Source: Lacrimispora xylanolytica (lineage in GTDB: Bacteria; Bacillota; Clostridia; Lachnospirales; Lachnospiraceae). From it: a stretch of 64,000 nucleotides of DNA. The translations under genes were made by a program, and so were the position numbers. How positions within the stretch are numbered: position 1 is the stretch's first letter; the number at the start of each line of letters is the position of its first letter. The notes under the pieces are model-generated. The model saw nothing but the letters and a program-made list of their open reading frames with translations. It was not told where the DNA came from and made no database searches. The stretch is taken from assembly GCF_026723765.1 (NCBI RefSeq), contig NZ_CP113524.1, positions 1,535,001 to 1,599,000 on the forward strand, given 5' to 3'. Shown piece after piece: positions 4,857 through 63,754 of this stretch.

Positions 4857-4876
4857 AATACAAATGGATAGGCACG

Positions 4877-4918
4877 TAATACCGTCAGGAGTGTAAAGCT
4901 CTCTGGCGGTATTTTTTT
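4877..4918 (+). terminator. Intrinsic terminator after the HxlR gene
   Basis: ATACCGTCAGGAG pairs with CTCTCTGGCGGTAT over a short loop and is followed by a run of seven T. Confidence 0.85.
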
Positions 4919-5018
4919 ACCATCGCTCAAAACCCTGACATTCTTATGGCATAGTTTGTCTGCTATGATGATCAAAAGCAATTGTAACATCTAACATAGC
5001 AGCAGGGAGGATATATAA

Positions 5019-16035: not shown

Positions 16036-16078
16036 GCTGGAGAATATGCCGCCGTTTGCGGAAGAATCGAGGATGATG

Positions 16079-18301: not shown

Positions 18302-18323
18302 CAAGTTTTGAATGAGGAATGGT

Positions 18324-48670: not shown

Positions 48671-50029
48671 ATGAGTCAATTTATTCAGTCATTGGTAGAA
48701 CGTTCCAGAAATGCACAACAGATTCTATGCACCTATGATCAGGAAAAGACGGACGAAATTGTAAAAATGTTTGCAAAGGTTGTCTTTGACCATGCGGAGC
48801 CACTTGCAAAGCTGGCAGCGGAAGAAAGCAGAATGGGTGTTTACGAGGATAAGGTAACAAAGAACAAGGGGAAATCCAGAAATATCTGGAATGCTTTAAA
48901 GGGTAAGAAGTCCATTGGAATCATCGGAAGAGATGAGGAGGCAGGTCTCATTGAAGTAGGAAAGCCCATGGGAGTCATTGCAGCGGCCACTCCATGTACC
49001 AATCCGGTAGTTACGCCCATGTGCAATGCCATGTTTGCAGTAAAATGTCAGAATTCCATTATCATAGCACCTCATCCAAGAGGTAAGAAATGTGCCATGG
49101 CTCTGGCAGAGCTATATTACAAAGAATTAGACCGCATGGGAGTTCCCAGAGACATTTTCCTGGTGATTGAAGCTCCTACCGTGGAGCTGACCACGGAACT
49201 GATGTCAGCCTGTGATGCTGTAATTGCAACTGGTGGTATGGGCGTTGTGAAATCAGCTTACTCCAGCGGTAAACCAAGCTACGGCGTGGGACCAGGTAAT
49301 GTTCAGGGGCTTGTAGATGAAGGAATTGATTACAAGGCAGCAGCAGGACGAATGATTGCAAGCCGTATCTTTGATAATGGAATCATCTGTTCCGGAACTC
49401 AGAGCATCATCGCACCGAAGAAGGATTACGATATCATTATAAAAGAATTTGTATCTCAGGGTGCTTACTACATTGATGACCCGGCAGTACTTGCAACTTT
49501 GGCAGAAGTGGTATTCCCAGGCGGTATTATCAATAAGAATGTAGTAGGACAATCGGTAAGGACCATTGCAGACCTGGCAGGCATTACGGTACCGGAAGGC
49601 ACCAAAGTTATTATCGTGAAGCCGGAAAAACATGGGGCTGGCGTGGTATGGAGCAAGGAAAAGATGTGTCCTATGATGGCTGCCTACAGCTATGAGACAT
49701 GGGAAGAAGCAGTGGAGATTGCCTATGATAACCTTTTGGTAGAAGGGGAAGGCCATTCCGCAGATATTCAGTCTGACAATCAAGCTCATATCGAATATGC
49801 AGGAGTCAGACTTCCAGTCAGCCGGGTGGTTGTCAATCAGACCTGTTCCAGCATGGCAGGAGGAGCTTTTGCAAATGCTCTAAATCCAACCACAACGCTT
49901 GGATGCGGAAGCTGGGGAAACAATGCGATCAGCGAAAATCTGTTCTACACTCATCTGATGAACAAGAGCCGCATCGCATTTGTGAAGAAACATTGGAACC
50001 AGCCGTCTGATGAAGAAATTTTTGCATAG
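48671..50029 (+). CDS. sucD: CoA-acylating succinate-semialdehyde dehydrogenase
   Basis: 452 residues, CoA-acylating aldehyde dehydrogenase family. Catalytic Cys240 in FDNGIICSGTQS; NAD-site sequence VIAAATPCTNPVVTPMCNAMFAVK; GNVQGLVDEGID. It reduces succinyl-CoA to succinate semialdehyde (or the reverse). The assignment over acetaldehyde dehydrogenase rests on the next genes, which encode the remaining steps of 4-hydroxybutyrate metabolism as in C. kluyveri. First gene of the operon. Confidence 0.88.
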   Translation: MSQFIQSLVERSRNAQQILCTYDQEKTDEIVKMFAKVVFDHAEPLAKLAAEESRMGVYEDKVTKNKGKSRNIWNALKGKKSIGIIGRDEEAGLIEVGKPMGVIAAATPCTNPVVTPMCNAMFAVKCQNSIIIAPHPRGKKCAMALAELYYKELDRMGVPRDIFLVIEAPTVELTTELMSACDAVIATGGMGVVKSAYSSGKPSYGVGPGNVQGLVDEGIDYKAAAGRMIASRIFDNGIICSGTQSIIAPKKDYDIIIKEFVSQGAYYIDDPAVLATLAEVVFPGGIINKNVVGQSVRTIADLAGITVPEGTKVIIVKPEKHGAGVVWSKEKMCPMMAAYSYETWEEAVEIAYDNLLVEGEGHSADIQSDNQAHIEYAGVRLPVSRVVVNQTCSSMAGGAFANALNPTTTLGCGSWGNNAISENLFYTHLMNKSRIAFVKKHWNQPSDEEIFA

Positions 50030-50041
50030 GAGAATCCGCTT

Positions 50042-51157
50042 ATGAAGGAAGTAATTTTAAAGTCACAGATTTCATATTACGATACCTGCGCTGAATTCGC
50101 TAAGGATTTTAATTTAGGAAGCGATGATCTGGTATTGACCAATGAATACATATATAACCCTTACTTCGGTGAAATGGGATTAAAGGTTCATACCATTTTT
50201 CAGGAAGCTTACGGGAGCGGAGAGCCTACAGATATAATGGTGGATGCCATTTTAGAAGAGGCTGCAAAGACGGATTGTAAACGAATCATAGCCATCGGAG
50301 GCGGTACGGTCATAGATATTGCAAAGATTATGGCAGTATCAACAGGGGAGTCTTTGGATTTTCTGTATGAAGCCCCTGATCGGATAGAAAAGAAACGGGA
50401 ACTGGTCATTCTTCCTACCACCTGTGGAACAGGAAGCGAGGTAACCAACATTTCCATCGTGAACCGGACCAGATTAGGGACAAAGGTGGGGCTGGTGTCA
50501 CCCCATATGTATGCCGATGATGCGGTACTGGTGCCAGAGCTTTTAAAGGGGCTGCCCTTTGGTGTATTTGCCACCAGCTCCATCGACGCCCTGGTCCATG
50601 CGGTAGAATCCAGTTTATCACCAAAGGCCACTCCTTATACCAAGCTGTTTGGCTACAAGGCCATTGAGATGATTATAAGGGGATACCAGAAGATAAGAGC
50701 AGAAGGAAAAGAAGCCAGACTTCCCATTATGAAGGATTTCCTCATTGCCAGCAATTACGCAGGTATCGCATTTGGCTCCGCAGGCTGTGCCGCGGTTCAC
50801 GCCACAAGCTACCCCCTTGGAGGAACCTATCATGTGGCTCATGGGGAAAGCAATTACGCCATGTTTACCGGTGTTTTAAAGAATTATATGGAAATACGCC
50901 AGGATGGGGAAATCGCAGTGATGAACCAGCGCCTTTCTAAGCTTTTAGGATGCAGCGTGGATACGGTTTATGACCAGCTTGACGATTTGCTTGGAACTAT
51001 ACTTCCTAAAAAGCCTCTTCATGAGTACGGTGTTAAGCCGGAAGACCTTTTCGTCTTCACAAAGAGCGTCATGGAGCAGCAGGGAAGGCTGATGGCAAAT
51101 AATTTTGTGCCCTTGGATGCACAAAGAGTTCTTAAAATTTATCAGGAACTATTTTGA
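50042..51157 (+). CDS. 4hbD: NAD-dependent 4-hydroxybutyrate dehydrogenase
   Basis: 371 residues, iron-containing alcohol dehydrogenase family. NAD motif AIGGGTVIDIAKIMAV, LPTTCGTGSEVTNISIV, and metal ligands in SSIDALVHAVESSLS and HVAHGESNYAMF. It interconverts succinate semialdehyde and 4-hydroxybutyrate. The length and operon order agree with the C. kluyveri enzyme. 12 bases after sucD, suggesting coupled expression. Confidence 0.9.
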   Translation: MKEVILKSQISYYDTCAEFAKDFNLGSDDLVLTNEYIYNPYFGEMGLKVHTIFQEAYGSGEPTDIMVDAILEEAAKTDCKRIIAIGGGTVIDIAKIMAVSTGESLDFLYEAPDRIEKKRELVILPTTCGTGSEVTNISIVNRTRLGTKVGLVSPHMYADDAVLVPELLKGLPFGVFATSSIDALVHAVESSLSPKATPYTKLFGYKAIEMIIRGYQKIRAEGKEARLPIMKDFLIASNYAGIAFGSAGCAAVHATSYPLGGTYHVAHGESNYAMFTGVLKNYMEIRQDGEIAVMNQRLSKLLGCSVDTVYDQLDDLLGTILPKKPLHEYGVKPEDLFVFTKSVMEQQGRLMANNFVPLDAQRVLKIYQELF

Positions 51158-51175
51158 GCTTATTGATGGAACAAC

Positions 51176-51207
51176 GCTTTGCATCGCTGACAGTCAGTCT
51201 GCAAAGC
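51176..51207 (+). promoter_or_regulatory. Intercistronic hairpin between 4hbD and abfD
   Basis: GCTTTGCA pairs with TGCAAAGC, enclosing a second stem CTGA-CAG-TCAG. No T-run follows; the abfD ribosome site lies directly downstream. More likely an RNA-stability or processing element than a terminator. Confidence 0.5.
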
Positions 51208-51226
51208 AAAAAAGGAGAAGATAGTT

Positions 51227-52675
51227 ATGGCTTTGATGACAGGGGAAGAGTATGTAGAAAGCATGCGTAAAATGAAACTCAATGTTTATATGTTTGGGGA
51301 AAAGATCGAGAACCCGGTTGACGACCCGATTTTAAGACCGTCGCTGAATTCGGTAAAGGCCACTTACGACTTAGCTCAGATGCCGGAATATGAAGATCTG
51401 ATGACAGTGACTCTGGAGGACGGAAGAAAGATCAACCGGTTTGCCAATATTCACACAAGTACAGATGATCTGATGAAAAAGGTAAAGATGCAGAGGCTCT
51501 GCGGTCAGAAAACGGCTTCCTGCTTTCAGCGCTGTGTCGGTATGGACGCATTTAATGCGGAATGGTCCACCACCTATGAGATTGACAAAAAGTATGGAAC
51601 TCATTATCACGAAAATTTCAAAAAATATCTGCGAATGGTTCAGGATGAGGATTTGACCGTTGATGGTGCCATGACGGACCCAAAAGGGGACAGGGGTCTT
51701 GCTCCTCATGAACAGCCGGATCTTGATATGTATTTGAGAGTGGTGGAGCGCAGGGAAGACGGTATCGTGGTAAGAGGAGCCAAGGCTCATCAGACAGGTA
51801 TCATTAACTCTCAGGAAGTGATTGTCATGCCAACGGTCGCCATGGGCCCTGATGATAAGGATTATGCGGTATCCTTTGCGGTTCCTACGGACGCTGATGG
51901 AATTGTCATGATCATCGGAAGACAGTCCTGTGATACCAGAAAGCTGGAGGGAAGCCAGATTGACGTTGGAAACAGCCAGTTTGGGGGCGTGGAAGCTCTG
52001 GTGGTATTTGACGACGTATTTGTACCAAATGACCGCATTTTCATGGATGGGGAATATGAATTTGCAGGAGTTTTGGTGGAACGGTTTGCCGGGTATCACA
52101 GACAGTCCTACGGTGGATGCAAGGTGGGAGTTGGCGATGTATTAATTGGTGCTACAGCTTTGGCAGCCGATTATAACGGAGTGCCAAAAGCGTCTCATAT
52201 TAAAGATAAACTGATTGAAATGACCCATTTAAACGAGACCCTTTATTGCTGCGGTATCGCCTGTTCTGCAGAAGGTACGCCTACGGAATCCGGAAATTAT
52301 ATTATCGACCTTCTTCTTGCCAATGTCTGCAAGCAGAACGTGACCAGATATCCCTATGAGATTGCCCGTCTGGCAGAGGACATTGCAGGTGGCCTTATGG
52401 TAACAGCTCCATCTGAAAAGGATTTAAAGGATCCTGTGGTGGGCGGTTACGTGGACAAATACTTAAAAGGGGTAGAAGGAGTCTCTACAGAAAACCGGTT
52501 AAGAATTCTTCGTCTCATTGAAAATATCACCTTAGGAACTGCGGCAGTCGGATACAGAACCGAATCTCTTCACGGTGCTGGCTCTCCACAGGCACAGAGA
52601 ATCATGATTTCCCGCCAGAGCAATATGGGCAGGAAGAAAGAGCTTGCAAAGGCAATTGCCAATATTAAGGATTAA
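51227..52675 (+). CDS. abfD: 4-hydroxybutyryl-CoA dehydratase / vinylacetyl-CoA isomerase
   Basis: 482 residues, AAAGGAG ribosome site. The [4Fe-4S] ligands known for this flavoenzyme are present: Cys99 and Cys103 (KTASCFQRCVGMD), His291 and Cys298 (ERFAGYHRQSYGGCKVG). It removes water from 4-hydroxybutyryl-CoA by a ketyl-radical mechanism to give crotonyl-CoA, and isomerises vinylacetyl-CoA. FAD-dependent and oxygen-sensitive, consistent with an anaerobe. This enzyme is the diagnostic step of the operon. Confidence 0.96.
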   Translation: MALMTGEEYVESMRKMKLNVYMFGEKIENPVDDPILRPSLNSVKATYDLAQMPEYEDLMTVTLEDGRKINRFANIHTSTDDLMKKVKMQRLCGQKTASCFQRCVGMDAFNAEWSTTYEIDKKYGTHYHENFKKYLRMVQDEDLTVDGAMTDPKGDRGLAPHEQPDLDMYLRVVERREDGIVVRGAKAHQTGIINSQEVIVMPTVAMGPDDKDYAVSFAVPTDADGIVMIIGRQSCDTRKLEGSQIDVGNSQFGGVEALVVFDDVFVPNDRIFMDGEYEFAGVLVERFAGYHRQSYGGCKVGVGDVLIGATALAADYNGVPKASHIKDKLIEMTHLNETLYCCGIACSAEGTPTESGNYIIDLLLANVCKQNVTRYPYEIARLAEDIAGGLMVTAPSEKDLKDPVVGGYVDKYLKGVEGVSTENRLRILRLIENITLGTAAVGYRTESLHGAGSPQAQRIMISRQSNMGRKKELAKAIANIKD

Positions 52676-52716
52676 GCTCTTTTATCAAATTAATATGCCA
52701 GGGAGGTCATATAGGT

Positions 52717-54033
52717 ATGGATTGGAAAGAGATATATTTATCAAGACTGAAAACCATGGAAGAGGCTGTTCAGCTGATCAAATCCGGTGACCGGGTAGTC
52801 ATCGGCCACGCAGTGGGAGAACCCATGAAGCTGGTGGATACCATGGTGGACTATGCCGCTAAGGCTGATTTAAAAGACATTGAGATATTCCAGCAGGTGG
52901 ATATGGGGCATTCCCTTTATGCACAGCCTGGAATGGAAAAACATTTCAGGGAGAACAGCCTGTTTTTAGGGGCTAAAACAAGGGATTGCGTCAACAGCGG
53001 ACGGGGTGACTTTACACCATGCTATTTTTACCAGACCCCTTATTTCTTTAAGGAAGTTAAAAGGCCAAATGTGGTTTTAGTAACCTTATCCCTGCCCGAT
53101 GAACACGGTTATTGCAGCTTTGGAGTATCCTGCGATTATACAAAGCCGGCAGCAGAGGCAGAGGGGGCAAAGGTAATCGCTGTTGTAAATCCCAATATGC
53201 CAAGGACTCTTGGAGACAGCTTTATCCATGTAAATGATATTGATGTCATCGTAGAGGACGATACCCCTATTCCGGAGCTGGGGCTTCCACACATCGGAGA
53301 TGTGGAAATGGCCATTGGGGAGCATATCGCCTCCCTGGTCAATGACGGAGACTGTCTCCAGCTTGGAATCGGAGCCATTCCCGATGCTGTACTTAAATTC
53401 CTTGGTAATAAAAAGAATCTGGGCATTCATTCAGAGATGATCTCTGATGGGGTGGTAGATCTTTATGAGCAGGGAATCATAAATTGCAGCGCAAAGAATT
53501 TCAATCGGGATAAGATGGTGGTATCATTTCTTATGGGGACCAGGAAGCTTTATGATTTTGCAGATGACAATCCAGGCCTTTTCATGGCTCCTGTTGACTA
53601 TGTCAATCACCCGGCTATTATTGGAAGAAATGACAATCTGGTTTCCATTAACTCTTCTATAGAGGTCAATCTTATGGGAGAGGCCTGCTCCGAGGCCATG
53701 GGCTTAAAGCAGTTTTCCGGAATCGGCGGGCAGGTGGATTTCATTCGTGGTGCTTCTTTTTCCAGAGGAGGAAGATCCATCCTGGCCTTTCCTTCCACCG
53801 CGAAAAAGGGAACCATATCAAAGATTGTGCCTTATCTGACCCAGGGAGCCACGGTTACAACTACAAGGAATGATGTGGATTATATTGTGACCGAACATGG
53901 GATTGCAAAAATGAAGGGAAATACGTTAAGAGAAAGAGCACGTCAGCTGATTAGGATTGCAGCACCTCAGTTTAAGGAGGAATTGGCGGAGGAATTCCAA
54001 AGACGTTTTGCCGAAAAATATCAGGAGGTGTAA
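52717..54033 (+). CDS. abfT: 4-hydroxybutyrate CoA-transferase (first of tandem pair)
   Basis: 438 residues, the normal length. Type I CoA-transferase with the active-site Glu240 in GIHSEMISDGVVDLY, GIGAIPDAVLKFLG before it, and the late CoA-loop IGGQVDFIRGASFSRGGRSILAF. It transfers CoA from acetyl-CoA (or another acyl-CoA) to 4-hydroxybutyrate, feeding AbfD. The ribosome site is GGGAGG. It ends four bases before a close paralogue. Confidence 0.9.
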   Translation: MDWKEIYLSRLKTMEEAVQLIKSGDRVVIGHAVGEPMKLVDTMVDYAAKADLKDIEIFQQVDMGHSLYAQPGMEKHFRENSLFLGAKTRDCVNSGRGDFTPCYFYQTPYFFKEVKRPNVVLVTLSLPDEHGYCSFGVSCDYTKPAAEAEGAKVIAVVNPNMPRTLGDSFIHVNDIDVIVEDDTPIPELGLPHIGDVEMAIGEHIASLVNDGDCLQLGIGAIPDAVLKFLGNKKNLGIHSEMISDGVVDLYEQGIINCSAKNFNRDKMVVSFLMGTRKLYDFADDNPGLFMAPVDYVNHPAIIGRNDNLVSINSSIEVNLMGEACSEAMGLKQFSGIGGQVDFIRGASFSRGGRSILAFPSTAKKGTISKIVPYLTQGATVTTTRNDVDYIVTEHGIAKMKGNTLRERARQLIRIAAPQFKEELAEEFQRRFAEKYQEV

Positions 54034-54037
54034 CTTC

Positions 54038-55351
54038 GTGGACTGGAAAAAAATCTATGCTTCAAAGTTAAAATCCCCTCAGGAGGCTGTAAAAATCATT
54101 TGCTCAGGGGATACGGTATTAATCGGTCATGCGGCATCAGAACCGGATCTTCTACTTAGTGCCATGGTTGATTATGTAGTAGATCAGGATTTAAAAAATA
54201 TCCATATTGTGCAGCAGCACGATATGGGAGCATGCAGGTTTTTTGAGCCTGGTATGGAAAAGCATTTTCGGTATACATCACTGTTTATCGGAGCCCGAAG
54301 CAGAAGCTTTGTTGCAGAGGGGAAGGGAGATTTTACCCCATGCTTTTTCAACCGGATTCCAAACTACGTGACGCAGACCGATTGTGCAGATGTATTTTTA
54401 GTAACACTTTCACCACCGGATGAACACGGCTATTGCAGCTACGGGCTTTCCTGTGATTTTGCCAAAGAAGTGGGGGAACAGCAAAATACAAAGGTCATCG
54501 CAGCGGTGAATCCTAATATGCCTAGGGTCATGGGAGATAACTTCATCCATGTCAGCAATCTGGAAGCAATCGTTGAAAGCAATGAGCCCATCCATGAACA
54601 TGGCCGCCCAGTCATCGGAGAGGTGGAGGAAAAGATTGGGGAAAACATTGCAGGACTTGTCCGGGATGGGGATTGTCTGCAGCTGGGAATTGGAGCAATT
54701 CCCGACGCGGTCTTAAAATTCCTGGGAGATAAAAGGGATCTTGGCATTCATTCCGAGATGATCTCTGATGGAATCATAGACCTCTACGAAAAAGGAGCCA
54801 TTACCGGGAAAAAGAAGAACATTGACCGGGAGAAGATGGTGGTTACCTTTATGATGGGAACCAGAACTCTTTATGATTTCGTCCATGACAATCCAGCCAT
54901 CTGCATGATGCCGGTCAGCTATGTAAATGATCCCTTTGTCATAAGCCAGAATGATAATGTGGTATCCATTAATTCAGCATTGCAGATTGATCTTATGGGG
55001 CAGGTGTGTGCGGAAGCCATTGGCTTAAAGCAGTATTCAGCCGTAGGCGGTCAGATGGACTTTGTAAGAGGCGCTTCTGCATCAAAGGGAGGCCGGTCCA
55101 TCATTGCCTTTGGCTCTACGACAAAGGGAGGAACCATTTCTAAAATCGTTCCGTTCCTTACCGAGGGGGCTGCAGTTACAACCAGCAGAAATGATGTGGA
55201 TTACATTGTAACAGAAAATGGGATCGCTCGTTTAAAGGGAAAATGTCTAAGGGACCGGGCAAAGGAACTCATAAAGATTGCCGCTCCAGCATTCCGGGAT
55301 GAGTTATCCAAAGAATTTGAGAAGCGTTTTGGAGAAGTGTTATTCGTTTAA
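54038..55351 (+). CDS. 4-hydroxybutyrate-type CoA-transferase (second of tandem pair)
   Basis: 437 residues from the GTG at 54038, which follows AGGAGGTG; a longer in-frame opening at 53957 lies inside the previous gene and is rejected. It is paralogous to its neighbour throughout (same DWKxIY start, active Glu in GIHSEMISDGIIDLY, VGGQMDFVRGASASKGGRSI). Divergence in the substrate-side loops (VQQHDMGACRFFEPGME versus FQQVDMGHSLYAQPGME) hints at a different acid, perhaps succinate, butyrate or another hydroxyacid. It may supply succinyl-CoA to sucD, which the operon otherwise lacks. Confidence 0.88.
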   Translation: MDWKKIYASKLKSPQEAVKIICSGDTVLIGHAASEPDLLLSAMVDYVVDQDLKNIHIVQQHDMGACRFFEPGMEKHFRYTSLFIGARSRSFVAEGKGDFTPCFFNRIPNYVTQTDCADVFLVTLSPPDEHGYCSYGLSCDFAKEVGEQQNTKVIAAVNPNMPRVMGDNFIHVSNLEAIVESNEPIHEHGRPVIGEVEEKIGENIAGLVRDGDCLQLGIGAIPDAVLKFLGDKRDLGIHSEMISDGIIDLYEKGAITGKKKNIDREKMVVTFMMGTRTLYDFVHDNPAICMMPVSYVNDPFVISQNDNVVSINSALQIDLMGQVCAEAIGLKQYSAVGGQMDFVRGASASKGGRSIIAFGSTTKGGTISKIVPFLTEGAAVTTSRNDVDYIVTENGIARLKGKCLRDRAKELIKIAAPAFRDELSKEFEKRFGEVLFV

Positions 55352-55372
55352 GGAAGATTGGGGAGGGGATAT

Positions 55373-55696
55373 ATGAATATTGTCATGATTTCTAATTTGC
55401 TGGAAACCCTTATGATTGTATGCTTTGGCTTGTCTTGGCCATTTTCCATACATAAATCTTATGTTTCCAGAACGGCGAAAGGAAAGAGTCTTTCTTTTGA
55501 GTTTTTCATCTGGCTGGGATACATATTCGGGATTGTAAGAAAATTCTTGCTGTACAATGCGGACCCTACCGGGAATGACTGGCTGTTTTTCTTATCCTGG
55601 TTCTTCTACTTTTTGAATTTTGTTGAAATTACTTTCGATATGTATCTTTATAAGAGAAATGTAAGATTAGATAAAGAGAGAGAACTGGAGAAGTAA
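55373..55696 (+). CDS. Small PQ-loop / SemiSWEET-like membrane protein
   Basis: 107 residues from the ATG at 55373, four bases after GGGGAGGGG. Three membrane helices; LSWPFSIHKSYVSRTAKGKSLS is the PQ-loop/SWEET-type first repeat with Pro in the helix, and a second segment IWLGYIFGIVRKFLL follows. Half-size (three-helix) members dimerise to form small-solute transporters. It may transport a fermentation-related solute, but nothing shows which. Last gene before the hairpin at 55703. Confidence 0.72.
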   Translation: MNIVMISNLLETLMIVCFGLSWPFSIHKSYVSRTAKGKSLSFEFFIWLGYIFGIVRKFLLYNADPTGNDWLFFLSWFFYFLNFVEITFDMYLYKRNVRLDKERELEK

Positions 55697-55702
55697 AAAA
55701 TA

Positions 55703-55745
55703 CCATGTTACGGCCCGGATAGGATTCCGGGCCAGGATAACATGG
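55703..55745. terminator. Long hairpin ending the 4-hydroxybutyrate operon
   Basis: CCATGTTA pairs with TAACATGG and GGCCCGG with CCGGGCC in one long interrupted stem. The T-tail is weak (AATTTT). It separates convergent genes and may serve both. Confidence 0.75.
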
Positions 55746-55766
55746 CAATTTTAGTATCTTTTTGTA

Positions 55767-56054
55767 TTAAAGCTGATGATTAAGTATTTTATGTGCCATT
55801 GTAAGCAGTTCGGGATTGGTTTCTTCTACTAAAATGATATCCTTTATAGCAGGAAATGCCTGGCTGATCTCAAGAGAAATCAATTCCTCATTGGTACTGT
55901 GAGCGGCAGGACACCCGGAACATTTCCCGGTGAGCCGGACCCTTAAAACATCGTTTTCAAGGCTTAAAACAATAACATTGCCGCCGTGGGCCGCTAAAGA
56001 GGGCCGCACCTTTGCATCAAGAACAGATTCAATTTGTTTCCGTGTGATATCCAT
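55767..56054 (-). CDS. NifU-like C-terminal domain protein (Fe-S carrier)
   Basis: 95 residues on the minus strand from the ATG at 56054, preceded by AAAGGAGG; a further in-frame start six codons upstream overlaps that site. The NifU C-terminal fold with IESVLDAKVRPSLAAHGGNV and the cluster-binding CSGCPAAH pair. Such proteins carry a [4Fe-4S] cluster to target apoproteins. Divergent from the LysR gene and next to the Fe-S dehydratase operon, so a role in maturing AbfD is conceivable but unproven. Confidence 0.85.
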   Translation of the reverse strand: MDITRKQIESVLDAKVRPSLAAHGGNVIVLSLENDVLRVRLTGKCSGCPAAHSTNEELISLEISQAFPAIKDIILVEETNPELLTMAHKILNHQL

Positions 56055-56114
56055 AGATAACCTCCTTTGCATAGTAGTCTATCAATGCATGGCCGGTTTG
56101 TCAATTGGGGTAAC

Positions 56115-56126
56115 GATATCAATATC
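56115..56126. promoter_or_regulatory. Short dyad in the NifU-like / LysR divergent region
   Basis: GATAT-CA-ATATC is a perfect inverted repeat 20 bases before the LysR start; ATAG-TAGT-CTAT near 56074-56085 is a second. Either could be a LysR binding half-site; assignment is tentative. Confidence 0.35.
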
Positions 56127-56145
56127 TTATGAAAGAAGTGATGGT

Positions 56146-57036
56146 ATGACTGCCAATTTTGAACACTATAAAGTTTTTTACTATGTAGCAAAATATAAGA
56201 ATTTTACCAGAGCGGCTAATGCCTTGGTCACAAGCCAGCCATCCGTTACATACTGCATGCAGAACTTAGAAAGTATGCTTGGGTGCAAACTGTTTATACG
56301 GTCCAGAAAAGGCGTGACTCTTACGGCAGAAGGAGAATTGCTCTACAGCTTTGTGGCTCCGGCCTGCAAGCAGCTGATGCAGGGAGAAGAAAAACTTCGG
56401 GAACTGATGGGGGAGCAGCATGATCATATCAATCTAGGGGCTACCCAGATGTCCATGCGTTCCTATCTGGTAGAGAAGCTTAAGATATTCCAGGAACAGT
56501 ATCCTCAGGTGAAGTTAAATATCTTTAACTATAATACAGAGCAGACCTTAAGCGAATTAAAGGCTGGAAAGATAGACCTGGCAATTATCACAACTCCCAT
56601 TGACAATGAACAGCGGTTAAAGGTGGTTGATGTAAAGCCCTTTAAGAGCATTTTAGTAGGGGGAGATAAGTATCAGGAATATGGAGAGAGGAAGATGTTT
56701 CTCTCAGAAGTGGTGAAGCTTCCTCTCATTACCATGTGCAGTACCTCTACTACCTTTGGTTTTCTTCAGGAATTTTACCGCTCCTGCGGCCTCACCATGC
56801 AGCCTGCCATTGAGGTAGCTACCATGGACTTAATCATACCGGTAATCAGAAAGAACCTTGGCATCGGCTTTGTACCGGAGGAATTTGCGATTCCCTTCCT
56901 GGAGAGAAAAGAAATCATGGAAATCAAGCTTCATGAACAGATTCCTGAGCGTAAAATCTGCATTGTCAGTGACGAGAACAGGCCTCTTAGCACAGCAGCC
57001 AGGGAATTACAAAACATGCTGGAGTGCCAGAAGTAG
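56146..57036 (+). CDS. LysR-family transcriptional regulator
   Basis: 296 residues from the ATG at 56146; a longer open frame upstream runs through the divergent NifU-like gene and is rejected. The N-terminal HTH reads FYYVAKYKNFTRAANALVTSQPSVTYCMQNLE, followed by a LysR substrate-binding domain (INLGATQMSMRSYLVEKLKIFQEQYPQVKLNI). It ends 20 bases before the MaoC-fusion gene on the same strand, so it is probably co-transcribed with that block and may control it, the 4-hydroxybutyrate genes, or both. Confidence 0.9.
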   Translation: MTANFEHYKVFYYVAKYKNFTRAANALVTSQPSVTYCMQNLESMLGCKLFIRSRKGVTLTAEGELLYSFVAPACKQLMQGEEKLRELMGEQHDHINLGATQMSMRSYLVEKLKIFQEQYPQVKLNIFNYNTEQTLSELKAGKIDLAIITTPIDNEQRLKVVDVKPFKSILVGGDKYQEYGERKMFLSEVVKLPLITMCSTSTTFGFLQEFYRSCGLTMQPAIEVATMDLIIPVIRKNLGIGFVPEEFAIPFLERKEIMEIKLHEQIPERKICIVSDENRPLSTAARELQNMLECQK

Positions 57037-57056
57037 CCGGTTGTCTGGAGGATTTC

Positions 57057-57782
57057 ATGATCATTGGAATTAAGTATTGCGGAGGCTGTAATCCATTTTA
57101 TAACAGGGCAAAACGGGTGGAGAAATTCAGAAAAGACAACCCGGAACATGAATATGTAAATTCTGCTGAGGATATGGTCTGTGATTATTGGCTGGTGGTC
57201 TGCGGCTGCAGCCGAAGATGTGCGGATATAAAAAATCTGAACGCCCATAAGAAAGTAGTTCTGTTATGGGATGAAGAAAGCTTTCAAAGTCTTCAAGGGG
57301 AGCTGCGGGCATCAGGGAAAGAAGAACCGGAAAAAGCAAGGGAAAAAAGAATTCTTTCTCTTTGTGAAGAGGCATCCATAAAACGAACCATATCCAGGGA
57401 GGATGCAGAATGCTTTGCCCGGTTAACTGGAGATGAAAGTAAGCTCCATCTGGATGTGCAGACGGCATTAAAGGCTGGTTTTGAAGGACCTCTGGTACAC
57501 GGAATGCTATTGGATTCCCTGGTCTCAGCCCTTATGGGGACCAGACTTCCAGGAAGTGGTACCGTCTATGTGGAGCACAATACCAGGTTCATTCGTCCTG
57601 TTTACTGGGGGGATACTGTGGAAATCACCGTCCGGTTCGTTTCCTTTGAGGAAGAGGATGACCATTATATGGGGCTTTTTTACGGAACCTGCAAAAACCA
57701 GCTTGGGCAGAGGATTCTTTCGGTAAGCTGCAGACAGAAGATGATGAAAACCCTATTTATAGTGGCAGGAGAAAAGGAGTGA
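57057..57782 (+). CDS. Cys-rich N-terminal domain fused to MaoC-like hydratase domain
   Basis: 241 residues from the ATG at 57057, after TGGAGG. Residues 1-60 contain six cysteines (Cys8, Cys11, Cys42, Cys49, Cys51, Cys55; motifs YCGGCNPFYNRAKR and VVCGCSRRC), suggesting metal or Fe-S binding or redox; I do not recognise the family. Residues about 105-235 are a MaoC/hot-dog domain with the R-hydratase catalytic dyad pattern TGDESKLHLD (Asp and His), GPLVHGMLLDSLVSALMG and ITVRFVSFEEEDD. It could hydrate or dehydrate a carrier-bound or CoA-bound 3-hydroxyacyl chain. The two-domain fusion is unusual. Confidence 0.75.
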   Translation: MIIGIKYCGGCNPFYNRAKRVEKFRKDNPEHEYVNSAEDMVCDYWLVVCGCSRRCADIKNLNAHKKVVLLWDEESFQSLQGELRASGKEEPEKAREKRILSLCEEASIKRTISREDAECFARLTGDESKLHLDVQTALKAGFEGPLVHGMLLDSLVSALMGTRLPGSGTVYVEHNTRFIRPVYWGDTVEITVRFVSFEEEDDHYMGLFYGTCKNQLGQRILSVSCRQKMMKTLFIVAGEKE

Positions 57783-57788
57783 GGCAGT

Positions 57789-58025
57789 ATGACAAATCTG
57801 GAAACATACAACCGGCTGTTTATCCGGGATTTAAGGGTAAAGGAAGAGGACCTTTCCGGTCTTAAATACAGAGGAACCCGTTCCTGGGATTCTCTGGGAC
57901 ACATGGACTTAGTCGCAGACTTAGAGGAGGCGTTTGATATTCATATCTCTACATCGGATGTCATGAACATTTCTTCCTACGAAAAGGGAAAGGAAGTCCT
58001 GCTAAAATACGGGGTCGTGATGTAA
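57789..58025 (+). CDS. Acyl carrier protein
   Basis: 78 residues, usual ACP size. The phosphopantetheine serine lies in RSWDSLGHMDLVADLEEAFDI (Ser near residue 35), and the protein is acidic overall. Six bases separate it from the previous gene. It is a dedicated, pathway-specific carrier rather than the main fatty-acid-synthesis ACP, judging by its divergent DSLGHM motif (house-keeping ACPs have DSLDxVE). Confidence 0.88.
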   Translation: MTNLETYNRLFIRDLRVKEEDLSGLKYRGTRSWDSLGHMDLVADLEEAFDIHISTSDVMNISSYEKGKEVLLKYGVVM

Positions 58026-58044
58026 AGGAAAGGAGCAGCCATTT

Positions 58045-59121
58045 ATGATAGATTATGAAGGCATTCTGAAGAGAGGGCCGTTTTCTGTCACACAGGCTGA
58101 AAAGAGAAGGCTTTACGGAGAATGGCTGACAGAGCTTACGGAGCATCACAGACAGAACTGCAGCCCTTACGATCAGATGCTGACGAACCTGATGATTCCG
58201 CGTCTTAAAGATATGGAAGAGGAAGAAATCCCCATGGTTCCAGTAGGTATTTTTAAGGAAATGAAATTGACCAGTATCGGAGAAGATAAGGTGTTTAAAG
58301 TCATGACCTCATCAGGAACCAGCGGGCAGAAGGTTTCTAAAGTCTATCTGGACCGGGAAACAGCCGAGTACCAGCAACGGGCACTGGCAAATATCGGAAG
58401 CGATTATTTTGGAGATTCCAGGCTGCCTTTCCTGATCATTGACAGCCCTCAGGTATTAAAGGACAGAAACATGTTCTCTGCCAGAGGAGCGGGGATTCTT
58501 GGTTTTTCGATCTTTTCTTCCAGGCTCTTTTACGGGCTTGATGAAGATATGAACCTTGATTTAGAGGGGATAGAGAAATTTCTGGAGCAATATCAGGGGA
58601 AAAAGGTCCTCATCTTTGGTTTTACCTATATCATCTGGACCTGCCTTTATCAGGCACTCAAGCAATCCGGGAGAAAGCTGAATCTTTCAGACGGCATTTT
58701 GATCCATGGAGGCGGATTTAAAAAGCTGAGGGATCAATCCGTGTCTCCGGAAGAATTCAAGGAAAGGCTATGGGAAGTCACTGGATGCAGAAGCATTCAT
58801 AACTACTATGGAATGGCGGAGCAAACAGGAAGCATCTATATGGAATGCTCCCATGGGCATCTCCATGCAAGTATTTATTCTGACATTATCACCAGAAGAG
58901 CCAGGGATTTTTCTATCTGTTCTCATGGAGAAAAAGGAATCATACAGGTGCTCTCACCACTGGCTCATTCCTATCCCGGTCACTCTATACTTACGGAAGA
59001 TGAGGGTATCATTCTTGGAGAGGATGATTGCCCCTGTGGTCGTAAGGGAAAACATTTTAAGGTATGCGGAAGGATTCACCAGGCGGAAATAAGGGGGTGC
59101 AGTGACACCTATGAAGGCTGA
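58045..59121 (+). CDS. LuxE-family acyl-protein synthetase
   Basis: 358 residues. ANL-related fold of the LuxE/PaaK group: PVGIFKEMKL, the nucleotide loop MTSSGTSGQKVSKVYLD, ILIHGGGFKKL and HNYYGMAEQTGSIYMEC, with a late cluster CPCGRKGKHFKVCGR. In luminous bacteria LuxE activates a fatty acid as acyl-AMP, takes it as a thioester, and passes it to the reductase LuxC. Here it sits beside an ACP and a LuxC homologue, so it probably activates an acid or transfers an acyl group for reduction. No luxAB luciferase genes are present. Confidence 0.88.
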   Translation: MIDYEGILKRGPFSVTQAEKRRLYGEWLTELTEHHRQNCSPYDQMLTNLMIPRLKDMEEEEIPMVPVGIFKEMKLTSIGEDKVFKVMTSSGTSGQKVSKVYLDRETAEYQQRALANIGSDYFGDSRLPFLIIDSPQVLKDRNMFSARGAGILGFSIFSSRLFYGLDEDMNLDLEGIEKFLEQYQGKKVLIFGFTYIIWTCLYQALKQSGRKLNLSDGILIHGGGFKKLRDQSVSPEEFKERLWEVTGCRSIHNYYGMAEQTGSIYMECSHGHLHASIYSDIITRRARDFSICSHGEKGIIQVLSPLAHSYPGHSILTEDEGIILGEDDCPCGRKGKHFKVCGRIHQAEIRGCSDTYEG

Positions 59122-60322
59122 GATTACCTATCTGGCAGGAGTGGAAAAACCAAAGGCAGAGCCTTCGGCCCCATTTGACACATTGGTTTTGAATTTTCTG
59201 GAGGCGCTTTCTAAGGAAATACGAAGGGATAGAGAATCATTAAAATATCCGGAAATGGCTGCATTTGGGTTCTGGATAAGAAGGGCTCATGTGGAGGAAT
59301 TTAAAAAGCGGTATGAAGATGGCCGGGTCCGTATCGGCAGAGGTGTGGTTTTTCATATGGCAGCTTCCAATGTTCCCTTGCTATTTGCATACAGTATGGT
59401 CATGGGTCTGCTGGCTGGAAACAGCTGCGTTGTACGAATCTCAATCCGATGTCAGGAAGAGGATTTCAAACTATGTGAAATCATAGACAATCTTTTGAAC
59501 ATACCGCCATTTGCCTCTATAAGGGACCGAATTTCAGTTTTTTCCTGTGAAAGAGACCATGAAATGGTAAGAAGCTGGGCAGAGGCTTGCGATGGATTGA
59601 TGGTATGGGGCGGTAATGAAACCATATCAGCCATTAGAAAATGGAATTTAAGGCCCGATGGAGTTTCCGTCATGTTTCCAGACCGGTATTCCATCTGTAT
59701 TCTGGATCAGAAGAGCATCGCCAGAATGCAAGGAGAAGAATTAAGGAACTTAGCACACTCCTTTGTTAATGACACCTATGCCATGGATCAGAATGCCTGC
59801 TCCAGTCCTCGTTATATCATATGGAACCAAGGGGAAGAGAAAGAAGAGGCAGAAGCAGTTCACAGAATGTGGTGGGAAGCCGTAGAAAAGGAAGCTGTTT
59901 CCTATGATTTAAGTCCTCATAAAGCCACAAAGAAGTATGAAGCACTGTGCAGATATACCATGACAATGGAAGGCATTATAAAAACAGAGAGGTATGGTAA
60001 TCTGGTTTATACAATTCTTCTGTCCGGGATACCCAAAGCTCCAGAAACGTACCGGGGAACCTGGGGATTGTTCTTTGAGTATCAGGGAGATTACCGAAAG
60101 GTTCTTAAGGAACTGGCAGTGAGTCAGCTCCAGACGGTGACCTATTATGGATTGGATTCAAAGGAACTCATGGATTATGTAATGGATCACCACCTTTATG
60201 GAATCCACAGAATAATACCTGTGGGAAATGCCATGAAGATGGATCTGATCTGGGATGGGCAGGATACGATTCGTATGTTGTCCAGGGAAATTATCCGGGA
60301 GGAAGAGCATGGGTCTGTTTGA
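59102..60322 (+). CDS. LuxC-family acyl-CoA/acyl-protein reductase
   Basis: 406 residues from a GTG at 59102 close to GGGGGTG and overlapping the previous gene by 20 bases; an ATG at 59111 is possible. Aldehyde-dehydrogenase-like fold: GRGVVFHMAASNVPLLFAYSMVMGLLAGN, VWGGNETISAIRKW and the catalytic Cys233 in MDQNACSSPRY, as in LuxC. It should reduce an acyl thioester to an aldehyde with NADPH. Its partner LuxE and an ACP are adjacent, forming a complete reductase module. Confidence 0.9.
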   Translation: MTPMKAEITYLAGVEKPKAEPSAPFDTLVLNFLEALSKEIRRDRESLKYPEMAAFGFWIRRAHVEEFKKRYEDGRVRIGRGVVFHMAASNVPLLFAYSMVMGLLAGNSCVVRISIRCQEEDFKLCEIIDNLLNIPPFASIRDRISVFSCERDHEMVRSWAEACDGLMVWGGNETISAIRKWNLRPDGVSVMFPDRYSICILDQKSIARMQGEELRNLAHSFVNDTYAMDQNACSSPRYIIWNQGEEKEEAEAVHRMWWEAVEKEAVSYDLSPHKATKKYEALCRYTMTMEGIIKTERYGNLVYTILLSGIPKAPETYRGTWGLFFEYQGDYRKVLKELAVSQLQTVTYYGLDSKELMDYVMDHHLYGIHRIIPVGNAMKMDLIWDGQDTIRMLSREIIREEEHGSV

Positions 60323-61724
60323 AAACGAATTATTTTATGAAAAACGTTTGCTGGCAGAAGATGATGAGGGCGGCAGGGTATCCTATCAGGATTTAAACTC
60401 TTTTTCAGAGGAATTGATCCGGCGCGTGGGAGGAAAAAAGCTGATTTTTATTCTATGCGAAAATACCATAGGTTCCCTTCTTGGTTATCTTGGCTGTTTA
60501 AAAACAGGAGTTGTTCCCCTGATGCTGGAAAAACAAATCAATCCCCAGCTATTGGCCCGGCTGATGGAAGAATACTGCCCCGCCTTTTTATATGTGCCGG
60601 AAGACTGCCTCACAAAAACAGGGGAATGTGAGATTGTCTGGAGAGTCAAGGGATACTGTTTATGTGAGAGAAAAGCCTTTCATTCTCCCTCTCTTTACGG
60701 AGAGCTTTCCCTTCTTCTGACCACATCAGGAAGTACGGGAAGTCCCAAGCTTGTAAGGCAGAGTAAGGACAATATTGTTGCGAATGCAGAATCCATCTGT
60801 TCCTATTTGAAAATCCAGGAGAAGGAGAGGCCTGTCACCACGCTTCCCATGAATTATACCTATGGATTATCCATAATAAACAGCCATGTAAAAAAAGGCG
60901 CTGCCATTTATCTCACCACCAAAAGTATTGTGGAACGCCCGTTTTGGGATTTTGTAAAAGAAAGGGAGATTACATCCTTAGGCGGTGTTCCATATACGTA
61001 TCAGCTTTTAAAAAGGATTGGATTTCTGGAAATGGAGTTACCGGAGTTAAGAACCCTGACTCAGGCAGGAGGAAAACTTCCAACGACTCTCCATAAAGAA
61101 TTCGCGGTCTACGCCAAAGAGACAGGAAAGCAATTTGTGGTCATGTATGGGCAGACAGAGGCCACTGCGAGGATGGGATACCTTCCGGCTGACAGCGCTG
61201 TGGAGCGGTGCGGCAGCATGGGAGTTGCCATACCAGGAGGGAGATTCTGGCTGAGAGATGACATAGGAGAAGAAATCAAAGAACCTTTCGTCCAGGGAGA
61301 GCTGGTGTATGAGGGAGATAACGTAGCACTTGGCTATGCTTCCAGCAGAGAGGATTTGAAAAAAGAAGATGAATGGAATGGAATCCTTTATACGGGAGAT
61401 ATGGCAGAACGAGATGCCGATGGCTTTTATTACATAACAGGAAGAAAGAAACGTTTCATCAAACTCTTTGGCAACAGGGTAAACCTTGATGAGGTGGAGA
61501 GGCTTTTAAAGGAACATTTTGAAGGAGTTGATTTTGCTTGTCTGGGAAGGGATGACAGCCTGATCATTTATACGGATACCAAAGGGGAAGAAGGCTTTAA
61601 GGAGATCATGGAATATCTATATGAGATTACCGGGATCAGCCCCAGAGCCATGACGATCAGATCGGTGAGTACAATTCCTAAAAATGAATCAGGAAAAACC
61701 CTTTACAGTGAGCTGGAAATATAG
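60309..61724 (+). CDS. AMP-forming acyl ligase (ANL superfamily)
   Basis: 471 residues from the ATG at 60309, after GGGAGG, overlapping the LuxC-like gene by 14 bases. AMP-binding motifs: LLLTTSGSTGSPKLVRQSK (P-loop), VVMYGQTEATARMGYL, and LYTGDMAERDADGFYYITGRKKRFIKLFGNRVNLDEVE with PKNESGKTLYSEL giving the final Lys. It is shorter than full acyl-CoA synthetases, with a truncated N-terminus, like ligases that load acyl carrier proteins. It probably activates a free acid and may charge the neighbouring ACP. Confidence 0.88.
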   Translation: MGLFENELFYEKRLLAEDDEGGRVSYQDLNSFSEELIRRVGGKKLIFILCENTIGSLLGYLGCLKTGVVPLMLEKQINPQLLARLMEEYCPAFLYVPEDCLTKTGECEIVWRVKGYCLCERKAFHSPSLYGELSLLLTTSGSTGSPKLVRQSKDNIVANAESICSYLKIQEKERPVTTLPMNYTYGLSIINSHVKKGAAIYLTTKSIVERPFWDFVKEREITSLGGVPYTYQLLKRIGFLEMELPELRTLTQAGGKLPTTLHKEFAVYAKETGKQFVVMYGQTEATARMGYLPADSAVERCGSMGVAIPGGRFWLRDDIGEEIKEPFVQGELVYEGDNVALGYASSREDLKKEDEWNGILYTGDMAERDADGFYYITGRKKRFIKLFGNRVNLDEVERLLKEHFEGVDFACLGRDDSLIIYTDTKGEEGFKEIMEYLYEITGISPRAMTIRSVSTIPKNESGKTLYSELEI

Positions 61725-61756
61725 AAAGCAAATAAACAGATCAAACAGGAGGTCTA

Positions 61757-62941
61757 ATGATGGGGGAAAAGGTTGTTTTAGCTGGTGCATGCCGTACGGC
61801 AATCGGATCAATGGGAGGAGCTTTAAGTACAGTTTCTCCAAAGGATTTGGGGGCGGTAGTGATCCAGGCTGCATTAAAGCGGGCAGGGGTCCCGGCGGAA
61901 CAGGTTGATTTTGTATATATGGGTTGTGTCATCCAGGCGGGGCTTGGACAAAACATTGCCAGGCAGGCTTCCTTAAAAGCAGGCATTCCCGTGGAAACTC
62001 CAGCCGTAACCGTCAATGTGGTCTGCGGTTCCGGATTAAACTGTGTCAACCTGGCGGCGGAAATGGTTCTCAGTGGAGATGCGGATATCGTGGTAGCCGG
62101 AGGAGCCGAAAATATGTCCATGGCTCCATATCTGTTAAAAGATGCCCGTTACGGTTACCGGATGAATCATGGTCAGATTGTAGATTCCATGATTAACGAT
62201 GCCTTATGGGATTCAACAAACGATTATCATATGGGAGTCACGGCTGAAAATGTCGCAGAGCAGTGGGGGCTCACAAGAGAAGAGCTGGACCGCTTTGCAG
62301 CCTCCAGCCAGCAAAAAGCTTGTGCCGCACAGGAATCCGGTCGGTTTGATGATGAAATCGTACCCATAGAAATCAAAAAAAGAAAAGAAACCATAATTTT
62401 TGATAAAGACGAAGGTCCCAGACCTGGAACTACCTGGGAAGGTATTTCAAAGCTGAAACCAGCCTTTAAAAAGGAGGGAATCGTGACGGCAGCCAACTCC
62501 TCCAGCATAAATGATGGGGCTGCGGCCATTGTAGTTATGAGCGAAAAAAAAGCAAAGGAGCTTGGGATTAAACCTATGGCATTCTGGGAAGCCGGAACTC
62601 TGGCAGGTGTGGCCCCTGAAATCATGGGAGTCGGCCCGGTAGCTGCCACGAAAAAACTGTTAAAAAAGACGAATCATTCGGTAGAGGACTTTGATCTCAT
62701 TGAGGCAAATGAGGCATTTGCAGCCCAGTCTCTGGCTGTAGCTCGTGATTTAAACCTTGATATGTCTAAAGTCAATGTTAATGGCGGAGCCATTGCCTTA
62801 GGTCATCCCGTGGGAGCATCCGGCTGTCGTATCCTAGTGACCTTACTTCACGAGATGGAGAAACGAGATGCGAAACGAGGGCTTGCCACCCTTTGCATAG
62901 GAGGCGGTATGGGCTGTGCCACCATAGTGGAGCGAGAGTAA
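61757..62941 (+). CDS. thlA: Acetyl-CoA acetyltransferase (thiolase)
   Basis: 394 residues; AGGAGG is four bases before this ATG and seven before the next ATG at 61760, so either may be used. Thiolase motifs: nucleophilic Cys in [38 protein letters not shown] (His), and [13 protein letters not shown] (Cys). It condenses two acetyl-CoA to acetoacetyl-CoA, the first step to butyryl-CoA. It lies 32 bases after the ligase gene, with crt and hbd next in order. Confidence 0.93.
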
Positions 62942-62977
62942 ATCCGTTACGATTAAAATGGAAAGAGGGGTCAGCTT

Positions 62978-63754
62978 ATGAAATTTGTTACATACGAAGT
63001 GGAAGGCCAGACAGGATTGATTACCATTAACCGTCCAGATGCACTCAATGCCTTAAACAGTCAGGTGCTTGAGGAACTGGATCACATACTGGATGAAATA
63101 GATCAAAGCTCAGTAAGAGCACTGATTTTAACAGGAGCCGGAGAGAAATCCTTTGTGGCAGGAGCAGACATTGGAGAGATGAGTTCTTTTTCAAAGGAAG
63201 AAGGAGAGGCCTTTGGAAAAAGAGGAAACGATATTTTTAAACGCCTGGAAACCTTTCCGATTCCCATCATAGCGGCTGTCAATGGCTTTGCCCTTGGAGG
63301 TGGCTGTGAGCTCTCCCTAAGCTGTGATATCAGAATCTGTTCGGAAAATGCCGTATTCGGTCAGCCGGAAGCAGGTCTGGGAATCACTCCAGGTTTTGGA
63401 GGCACTCAGAGGCTGGCACGAATTGTAGGGCCAGGAATGGCAAAACAGATGATCTTCACCGCAAGAAATATTAAGGCAGAGGAAGCATACCGAATCGGCC
63501 TGGTGAATGCCATCTATCCCCAAAATGAGCTTTTGACCGAGGCGAAAAAAATGGCAAAAGGGATTGCAGACAATGCTCCCATAGCAGTGAGAAACTGTAA
63601 AAAGGCCATCAATGACGGTCTCCAGGTAGATATGGATCAGGCAGTGGTAATCGAAGAAAAGCTGTTTGGTGACTGCTTTGAAACTTACGATCAAAAAGAA
63701 GGAATGGGTGCATTTTTAGAAAAGCGGAAAGAGAAGAGATTCATGATGAAGTAA
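62978..63754 (+). CDS. crt: 3-hydroxybutyryl-CoA dehydratase (crotonase)
   Basis: 258 residues. Crotonase fold with the oxyanion-hole segments SFVAGADIGEM and GFALGGGCELSLSCDIRI and the catalytic Glu in FGQPEAGLGITPGFGGTQRLAR. It dehydrates 3-hydroxybutyryl-CoA to crotonyl-CoA. Located between thiolase and hbd as in butyrate operons; both this route and the AbfD route in the same window end in crotonyl-CoA. Confidence 0.93.
   Translation: MKFVTYEVEGQTGLITINRPDALNALNSQVLEELDHILDEIDQSSVRALILTGAGEKSFVAGADIGEMSSFSKEEGEAFGKRGNDIFKRLETFPIPIIAAVNGFALGGGCELSLSCDIRICSENAVFGQPEAGLGITPGFGGTQRLARIVGPGMAKQMIFTARNIKAEEAYRIGLVNAIYPQNELLTEAKKMAKGIADNAPIAVRNCKKAINDGLQVDMDQAVVIEEKLFGDCFETYDQKEGMGAFLEKRKEKRFMMK

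Follow-up and report, generated by a model that had tools for sequence, protein, structure and literature searches.

The 64,000-nucleotide stretch analyzed here (the window) spans bases 1535001–1599000 of the 4.52 Mb single-contig genome of Lacrimispora xylanolytica and carries five open reading frames (ORFs), all on the + strand at 57057–61724, that sit between a 4-hydroxybutyrate (4HB) operon containing the dehydratase AbfD and the genes thl and crt. These five ORFs, the cassette, encode a MaoC-type enzyme fused to a Cys-rich domain that we call CGGC, an acyl carrier protein (ACP), relatives of LuxE and LuxC, and an acyl ligase. The original prediction, made from the same DNA, had described five tightly packed or overlapping genes of these kinds lying between two crotonyl-CoA routes; all five ORFs are present at its coordinates, their families were confirmed, and the AbfD/4HB operon upstream and thl-crt downstream bear out the placement. 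The core of ACP, ligase, LuxE and LuxC is already known and its function is unexplained. What is new is its AbfD-wired context with a CGGC-dehydratase, which recurs in several genera, and we tentatively read the cassette as an accessory biosynthetic reductase that makes an aldehyde from a short acid. The cassette consists of:

57057..57782, + strand: CGGC domain (residues 1–87, bases 57057–57317) fused to a MaoC hydratase/dehydratase; PF01575, 5e-18
57789..58025, + strand: ACP with phosphopantetheine Ser35; PF14573 at 4e-5 and PF00550 at 1e-3, both under the gathering score
58045..59121, + strand: LuxE-type acyl-protein synthetase, Cys352; PF04443, 3e-51; 7xc6_E, 7.7e-17
59102..60322, + strand: LuxC-type reductase, Cys233, residue 94 = Leu; PF05893, 1.4e-31; 7xc6_A, 0.006
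60255..61724, + strand, start perhaps 60309: AMP-forming acyl ligase, predicted ACP loader; PF00501, 3.8e-37

LuxE and LuxC proteins together are expected to convert an acid to an aldehyde, and the residues for this chemistry are intact. Cys233 of LuxC, which had been called intact from this one gene, is invariant in 39/39 aligned homologues, and the DQNAC stretch around it aligns with DQQAC of the 7xc6 LuxC, a weak match overall. The LuxE alignment to its 7xc6 counterpart spans nearly the entire length; Cys352 aligns with a Cys of that protein, is invariant in 38/38 homologues and is predicted to be the acylated C-terminal Cys. The ACP is weak by Pfam, yet its attachment-site Asp-Ser is invariant in 34/34 homologues, and the core of the ligase nucleotide-binding motif and its last lysine are likewise kept in 34/34. 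The ligase ORF overlaps the end of LuxC by 68 nt and has an alternative internal ATG at ~60309, giving a protein of 489 or about 471 amino acids; since the C-terminal lysine motif is there too, the earlier description of the ligase as short does not hold to any notable degree. The MaoC part resembles PhaJ (1iq6) in sequence (1.8e-16) and by Foldseek of the predicted model (9.9e-12, model pLDDT 77), and the Asp/His motif GDxxxLH, which we take to be catalytic in MaoC enzymes, is visible in the alignment. At five loci (L046 at 4690–7038, L056, L124, L126 and L127; L and G labels denote loci and genomes, respectively) LuxE and LuxC are fused in a single ORF of ~770–790 residues, and these fusions support a direct hand-over between the two.

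The cassette starts 20 bases after the end of a LysR-type regulator gene and ends 32 bases before thl. Its neighbours are:

48671..50029, + strand: acylating aldehyde dehydrogenase, succinate-semialdehyde dehydrogenase (SSADH)-like, flanking operon; PF00171, NCBIfam acylating aldehyde dehydrogenase families below cut-off
50042..51157, + strand: iron-type alcohol dehydrogenase, 4HB dehydrogenase-like, flanking operon; NCBIfam families including NF058672, below cut-off
51227..52675, + strand: AbfD, 4-hydroxybutyryl-CoA dehydratase; 1u8v, E 4e-239 over its length
52717..54033, + strand: CoA-transferase 1, butyryl-CoA:acetate type; TIGR03948, 1.6e-92, below cut-off
53957..55351, + strand: CoA-transferase 2; clusters with CoA-transferase 1, no family-library scan behind the name
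55358..55696, + strand: small SWEET/PQ-loop-like membrane protein, named by eye; no Pfam or NCBIfam match
55767..56072, − strand: NifU-like protein; PF01106, 2.7e-18
56148..57036, + strand, start approximate (ORF 55930–57036): LysR-type regulator directly 5′ of the cassette; PF00126, PF03466
61757..62941, + strand: thl, acetyl-CoA acetyltransferase; neighbour protein scan
62978..63754, + strand: crt, short-chain enoyl-CoA hydratase; neighbour protein scan

Judged by their predicted products, the upstream genes for the route from 4HB to crotonyl-CoA (AbfD, the SSADH-like and 4HB dehydrogenase-like enzymes and two CoA-transferases) are real. Residues Cys99, Cys103, His291 and Cys298 of AbfD, presumably its cluster ligands, are conserved in 46–47 of 47 rows. 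The ORF of CoA-transferase 2 overlaps CoA-transferase 1 at its start, and its real start is probably internal. A NifU homologue heads the Lux operon at several other loci. The window LuxC is the sole PF05893 match in the genome and shares 97% identity with the LuxC of Clostridium sp. 12(A) and 90% with that of [Clostridium] aerotolerans DSM 5434, which NCBI taxonomy places in Lacrimispora, Lachnospiraceae; we therefore use Lacrimispora for the window's genus group.

Within 25 genomes of this genus, LuxC is found in 15 and AbfD in 20, and all 15 LuxC genomes are among the 20 with AbfD. The five cassette genes are present or absent together (these counts retain L195, where the frames of several genes are broken, and L187, whose MaoC ORF is short). 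Five Lux-less AbfD operons were inspected. In four (L197–L200) LysR runs directly into other ORFs (in L199, those for an acyl-CoA dehydrogenase and EtfB/EtfA), and one of the four is a second AbfD operon copy in a cassette-bearing genome (G847). All that is left in the fifth, L196, is an 88-residue ORF (6477–6743) in which the beginning of CGGC runs straight into the ligase end, a case of natural cassette deletion. Presence or absence as a unit and this deletion indicate that the cassette is discrete and dispensable, with ends matching those originally drawn.

Of 397 genomes of the family searched for LuxC, 37 gave a match at E ≤ 1e-10, 27 of these at E ≤ 1e-30, and 34 of the 397 carry AbfD at E ≤ 1e-60. 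LuxC (E ≤ 1e-30) and AbfD occur together in 14 genomes as opposed to 2.3 expected, a statistic that ignores kinship, and 10 of these 14 (10/27 of the Lux-bearing genomes) carry both at one locus. G000 and G321, both among the ten, are one species, and two of the ten linked loci are truncated at contig ends: the G269 contig stops within AbfD, and in G048 the two contigs share 372 bases at 97%, covering the end of a metallo-β-lactamase (MBL)-fold hydrolase gene and the start of LuxE. The inspected set did not extend to G850, which has AbfD without Lux, or to G699, whose LuxC is at a contig end. A class-wide search found LuxC at E ≤ 1e-25 in 9/391 genomes, with one (L125) of six newly fetched neighbourhoods AbfD-linked, and five of 40 genomes from the family of L125 and L167 have LuxC, two of them AbfD-linked. 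The predicted tie to a crotonyl-CoA route thus extends beyond one genome. As it is seen in multiple genera and in two families, with motif pairs before the operons at four loci and a hydratase and ACP in the block, we do not regard the linkage as a single-genome accident, and this is the supported part of an original interpretation that is partly supported overall.

The linked loci come in more than one gene order. Type A1 outside the genus reads NifU, CGGC-MaoC, ACP, MBL-fold hydrolase, LuxE, LuxC, ligase, and in Lacrimispora LysR stands directly before CGGC-MaoC. L004, placed among the genus loci in trees, does have the MBL gene. Type A2 reads AbfD, NifU, CGGC alone, CoA-transferase, permease, ACP, ligase, LuxE, LuxC, with variants lacking CGGC and permease (L054) or permease and CoA-transferase (L059). 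For the permease-like protein beside the CoA-transferase in L036, L049 and L055, NCBIfam gave no match to the L049 copy and Pfam none to the L055 copy. In another family, L125 and L167 read AbfD, NifU, CGGC-dehydratase, CoA-transferase, small ORF (DUF1097 in L125), ACP, MBL, LuxE, LuxC, ligase, with gene gaps of ≤80 bases. A co-oriented run from AbfD into the Lux genes is found in L125, L167, L059, L049, L055 and L054. Three sorts of thioesterase-type gene are found next to the core in relatives: seven linked loci have MBL, L049 has an abhydrolase (homologue in L055), and L048 has a PF00975 thioesterase (homologues in L052 and L124).

The fetched LuxC neighbourhoods are mostly of two kinds, AbfD loci and glycan-type clusters, the latter combining the core with genes assigned by Pfam to DegT aminotransferase, NeuB, PglD, split transketolase, short-chain dehydrogenase/reductase (SDR) or glycosyltransferase families. 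With DegT, NeuB, PglD, split transketolase, GT28 and FkbM counted as markers, at least one is present at 22 of 26 loci lacking AbfD and at none of 25 AbfD-linked stretches (23 distinct genomes, two counted twice). The raw count without AbfD was 23/30, from which the contig-end linked loci L039, L042 and L188 and the distant LuxC of L061 were removed; of the marker-free loci among the 26, L165 has an SDR only and L038, L043 and L060 have none of these genes. Split transketolase often accompanies the core in glycan-type clusters (L047, L050, L056, L057, L123, L128, L164, L166 and L168), a combination which suggests that an aldehyde and a two-carbon transfer may build an unusual sugar there. In the open-access literature (supplements, preprints and most subscription papers were outside this scope) we found no AbfD-wired version with CGGC-dehydratase and no paper combining 4-hydroxybutyryl-CoA dehydratase with LuxE, and the papers found for 4HB, LuxC, ACP and Clostridium made no mention of LuxC.

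The CGGC domain is found in 20/397 family genomes, all among the 34 with AbfD, and in 18 of the 20 it lies within 6 kb of AbfD; in G368 the two are each near the start of their own contig, and in G289 CGGC is on another contig. CGGCN, Tyr15, Arg17 and GC-x3-C are invariant in 13 CGGC sequences. The domain stands alone next to AbfD in the Lux-less loci L107, L109 and L099, and was also noted at L094. Its partner is MaoC in A1 loci and a FabA/FabZ-type dehydratase (PF07977) in L125 and the Lux-less L129; the presence of two different hot-dog enzymes on one domain tied to AbfD suggests a role here for acyl-ACP hydration or dehydration. The stretch at L129:2241–14587 encodes AbfD, the CGGC-FabA-like protein and an ACP without Lux genes, followed by amidohydrolase, major facilitator superfamily and molybdopterin oxidoreductase genes. 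A CGGC profile matched no Pfam family beyond weak chance-level matches and no PDB relative (best E 1.3), and the predicted model is Rossmann-like with no clear structural match. An assignment as a thioredoxin-like [2Fe-2S] ferredoxin, guessed from the Cys spacing, is unsupported by either the model or the PDB and Pfam profile searches; such ferredoxins are absent from the matches listed, which by itself does not count against them.

LuxC trees contain two AbfD-linked groups, of which A2 is firm (100/99), nested in glycan-type sequences and apart from A1. The arrangement in the LuxE tree is weakly supported, and Lux-linked rows are dispersed over the AbfD tree; the seven linkage changes counted there are an overcount because L112 and L039 are parts of one AbfD gene. 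For these comparisons L035/L002 and L183/L003 were treated as the same genomes (L183 was kept among the genus rows), L002, L003 and L035 were excluded from residue tests, and L061–L063, with distant LuxC, were excluded from trees. Residue 94 of LuxC, four residues past the Asn of the SNVP motif, is L, M or F in 25 linked rows and N or Q in 31 unlinked rows, so that 56/56 agree. The rule was set on 37 rows and then checked on 19 more, all of which fit: six from outside the genus (one linked, F; five unlinked, N) and 13 genus rows, all L, which are closely related to one another and of which one comes from a genome that was already part of the rule-forming set. This makes residue 94 a suggestive candidate for a linkage-associated specificity residue, short of proof. 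No column of LuxE, ligase or ACP separates linked from unlinked rows, leaving residue 94 as the sole separator. A looser scan gave five LuxC columns against a random-set mean of 0.85 and maximum of 4, two columns each for LuxE and ligase (random maximum 2) and one for ACP (random maximum 0).

Sigma-54-type motifs with ≤1 mismatch, for which the background is 0.0064 per 280 bases, lie upstream of 12 of 52 AbfD genes, and all four divergent Lux loci (L036, L039, L046 and L096) have a pair, one before AbfD and one before the NifU-led Lux operon. The pair is also present at L094 though it has no Lux genes, and L098 and L104, Lux-less or cut-off divergent loci, have the AbfD motif only. No such site with ≤1 mismatch was found near the cassette in the window; the pairs belong to other loci. 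Between 48100 and 64000 there is no excess of sigma-70-like sites (25 as opposed to 26.4 in shuffles), and terminator-like sites number 23 as opposed to 15.1 (standard deviation 4.1). Elsewhere in the window, a BcsB-like cellulose synthase subunit adjoins a PMT-type glycosyltransferase (15980–20300), and an 1853-residue surface protein carries S-layer homology domains and choline-binding repeats (36843–42404).

Taken together, we favour, at a little under even chances, an accessory biosynthetic LuxCDE-like reductase wired to the AbfD operon that would make an aldehyde from a short acid, probably C4, bound to a carrier. The ligase would adenylate the acid and load it on the dedicated ACP, and the hot-dog enzyme attached to CGGC (MaoC in this cassette, FabA/FabZ type elsewhere) would interconvert enoyl-ACP and (R)-3-hydroxyacyl-ACP. 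A thioesterase, possibly the MBL-fold hydrolase of related loci, may then release the acid for LuxE to re-activate as acyl-AMP and hold on Cys352, from which LuxC would accept the acyl group on Cys233 and use NAD(P)H to reduce it to the aldehyde. As the window block has no thioesterase, LuxE there may take the acyl group another way. The AbfD linkage and the apolar residue 94 favour a C4 acid, most likely a crotonyl or 3-hydroxybutyryl unit from the AbfD route, and two ATP-consuming steps together with dispensability argue for biosynthesis over energy metabolism, with the product probably a low-flux aldehyde and not a main fermentation product. A bolder version, possible but doubtful, is that in gut-type Clostridia C4 units from the radical dehydration by AbfD are moved from CoA to the private ACP and hydrated by the CGGC-dehydratase, after which LuxE/LuxC would reduce them, giving a C4 aldehyde for a signal or natural-product building block; at loci without an operon CoA-transferase (L059) they would be processed directly, and AbfD might act on the ACP-bound acid.

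Several points weigh against this accessory-reductase reading, beginning with its substrate and product, both of which we infer. AbfD and LuxC are at separate loci in four of the 14 co-occurring genomes (G229, G256, G299 and G379), and G229 has a CGGC-dehydratase and ACP without ligase, LuxE or LuxC. The MBL hydrolase was not detected in the window block or in 13 genus loci. CGGC is absent from L054 and from 14/34 AbfD genomes and hence dispensable for AbfD, and AbfD itself has no Lux-tied signature among 47 rows, just a loosely enriched residue 402. At the divergent locus L095, which breaks off after CGGC, the motif is found before AbfD and none before NifU. A single clade of all linked LuxC is rejected marginally (p 0.024 in one test and 0.0495 in another), and the test group was chosen after viewing a tree. 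Residue 94 and linkage each change only twice on the tree, which leaves two pairs and a kinship-aware sign test (p 0.5) that is unable to reach significance, and it is by aldehyde dehydrogenase numbering that we take the region of residue 94 to line the acyl tunnel.

Other explanations were considered for the same genes. The cassette could instead supply an acyl or aldehyde building block of a surface sugar, with AbfD a mere neighbour, as the marker-rich loci without AbfD and, going by the available text of the two papers, comparable sets in Aeromonas (PMC7874193) and Enterobacteriaceae (PMC4875605) islands would suggest; we consider this unlikely given that AbfD-linked stretches have no glycan marker, share CGGC and promoter motifs with AbfD, and differ at residue 94. 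The original prediction had named conservation of the block in unrelated contexts as a point that would count against it, and this is half borne out: the core is indeed common in glycan-type clusters, whereas the CGGC-dehydratase is tied to AbfD. The cassette might also hitch-hike in a favoured site with no metabolic tie to AbfD, since the core exists without AbfD elsewhere in the family and the cassette comes and goes as a unit in the genus, but recurrent linkage in different orders (A1, A2 and family f56), paired motifs and CGGC fusions are unlikely by chance, making such neutral company very improbable.

If the cassette does act on the AbfD route, it could feed it, with ligase, LuxE and LuxC reducing succinate to succinic semialdehyde and 4HB dehydrogenase then giving 4HB for AbfD. 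The window's SSADH-like enzyme has no close orthologue in 24 other AbfD genomes (best 41%), and 4HB dehydrogenase homologues of at least 49% identity are found in 6/9 other Lux-linked genomes of that set. Such a feeder role seems improbable nonetheless, as an SSADH-like gene is already in the window and in 12/13 genus loci (the remaining one, L188, begins where its contig does), the ACP and hydratase are left unexplained, residue 94 is apolar, and 4-aminobutyrate transamination can provide the semialdehyde. The fermentation branch of the original prediction, in which butyrate, crotonate or 3-hydroxybutyrate is reduced through an aldehyde to an alcohol as an electron sink, has iron-type alcohol dehydrogenases in or near several linked loci in its favour. 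It would cost ATP at both ligase and LuxE where an AdhE/acyl-CoA route is cheaper, several genus genomes keep the 4HB operon without the cassette, and a naturally deleted copy exists (L196), so this branch looks very unlikely. The C4 identity of the acid and the identity of the product, also part of that prediction, are at present inference.

Known systems offer partial parallels to the cassette. The luxCDE system of luminous bacteria (7xc6) shares the LuxE and LuxC families, the two catalytic Cys, the presumed path from acyl-AMP through acyl-Cys to aldehyde, and a thioesterase-type gene near the core in several relatives of the cassette. It differs in that the cassette has its own ACP, a second AMP-forming ligase, a hydratase and the AbfD context, and no LuxD homologue was identified, MBL, abhydrolase or thioesterase-type genes being found in relatives only. 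The luxCDE equivalog cut-offs of NCBIfam are not reached (LuxE 69.7/550 bits, LuxC 41/750), and no luxAB luciferase family was found among the neighbours scanned at 48671–63754, with CoA-transferase 2 and the rest of the genome unsearched. Flagellin glycosylation islands are alike in gene content: as far as the available text of the two papers goes, Aeromonas group II islands hold ACP, 3-oxoacyl-ACP reductase, AMP-dependent synthetase, LuxE and LuxC, for which a liposugar glycan component is suggested (PMC7874193), and those of Enterobacteriaceae hold Acp, LuxE, LuxC, CaiC and FabG (PMC4875605), with the function of the set merely suggested in both. There the group of ACP, AMP-synthetase, LuxE and LuxC stands in a pseudaminic-acid/glycosyltransferase setting with 3-oxoacyl-ACP reductase, whereas here it stands with CGGC-MaoC and AbfD and no glycan genes. 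The pathway from 4HB or 4-aminobutyrate to crotonyl-CoA shares AbfD, CoA-transferases and 4HB dehydrogenase with the flanking operon, and its gene list in the available text of PMC5715108 has no ACP, LuxC or LuxE. The cispentacin ACP-ligase pair AmcB/AmcH (NCBIfam) gives weak matches far under the cut-offs (22/80 and 86/370 bits).

This work puts a name to CGGC, an uncharacterised Cys-rich domain tied to AbfD. If the accessory-reductase reading is true, a gut-bacterial fermentation enzyme would be linked to an undescribed reactive short-chain aldehyde, and the orphan ACP/LuxE/LuxC sets of flagellar and surface-glycan islands would gain a testable function. There is also a hint, through the connection we draw between AbfD and the cassette, that abfD counts in metagenomes may not measure the 4-aminobutyrate butyrate pathway alone.

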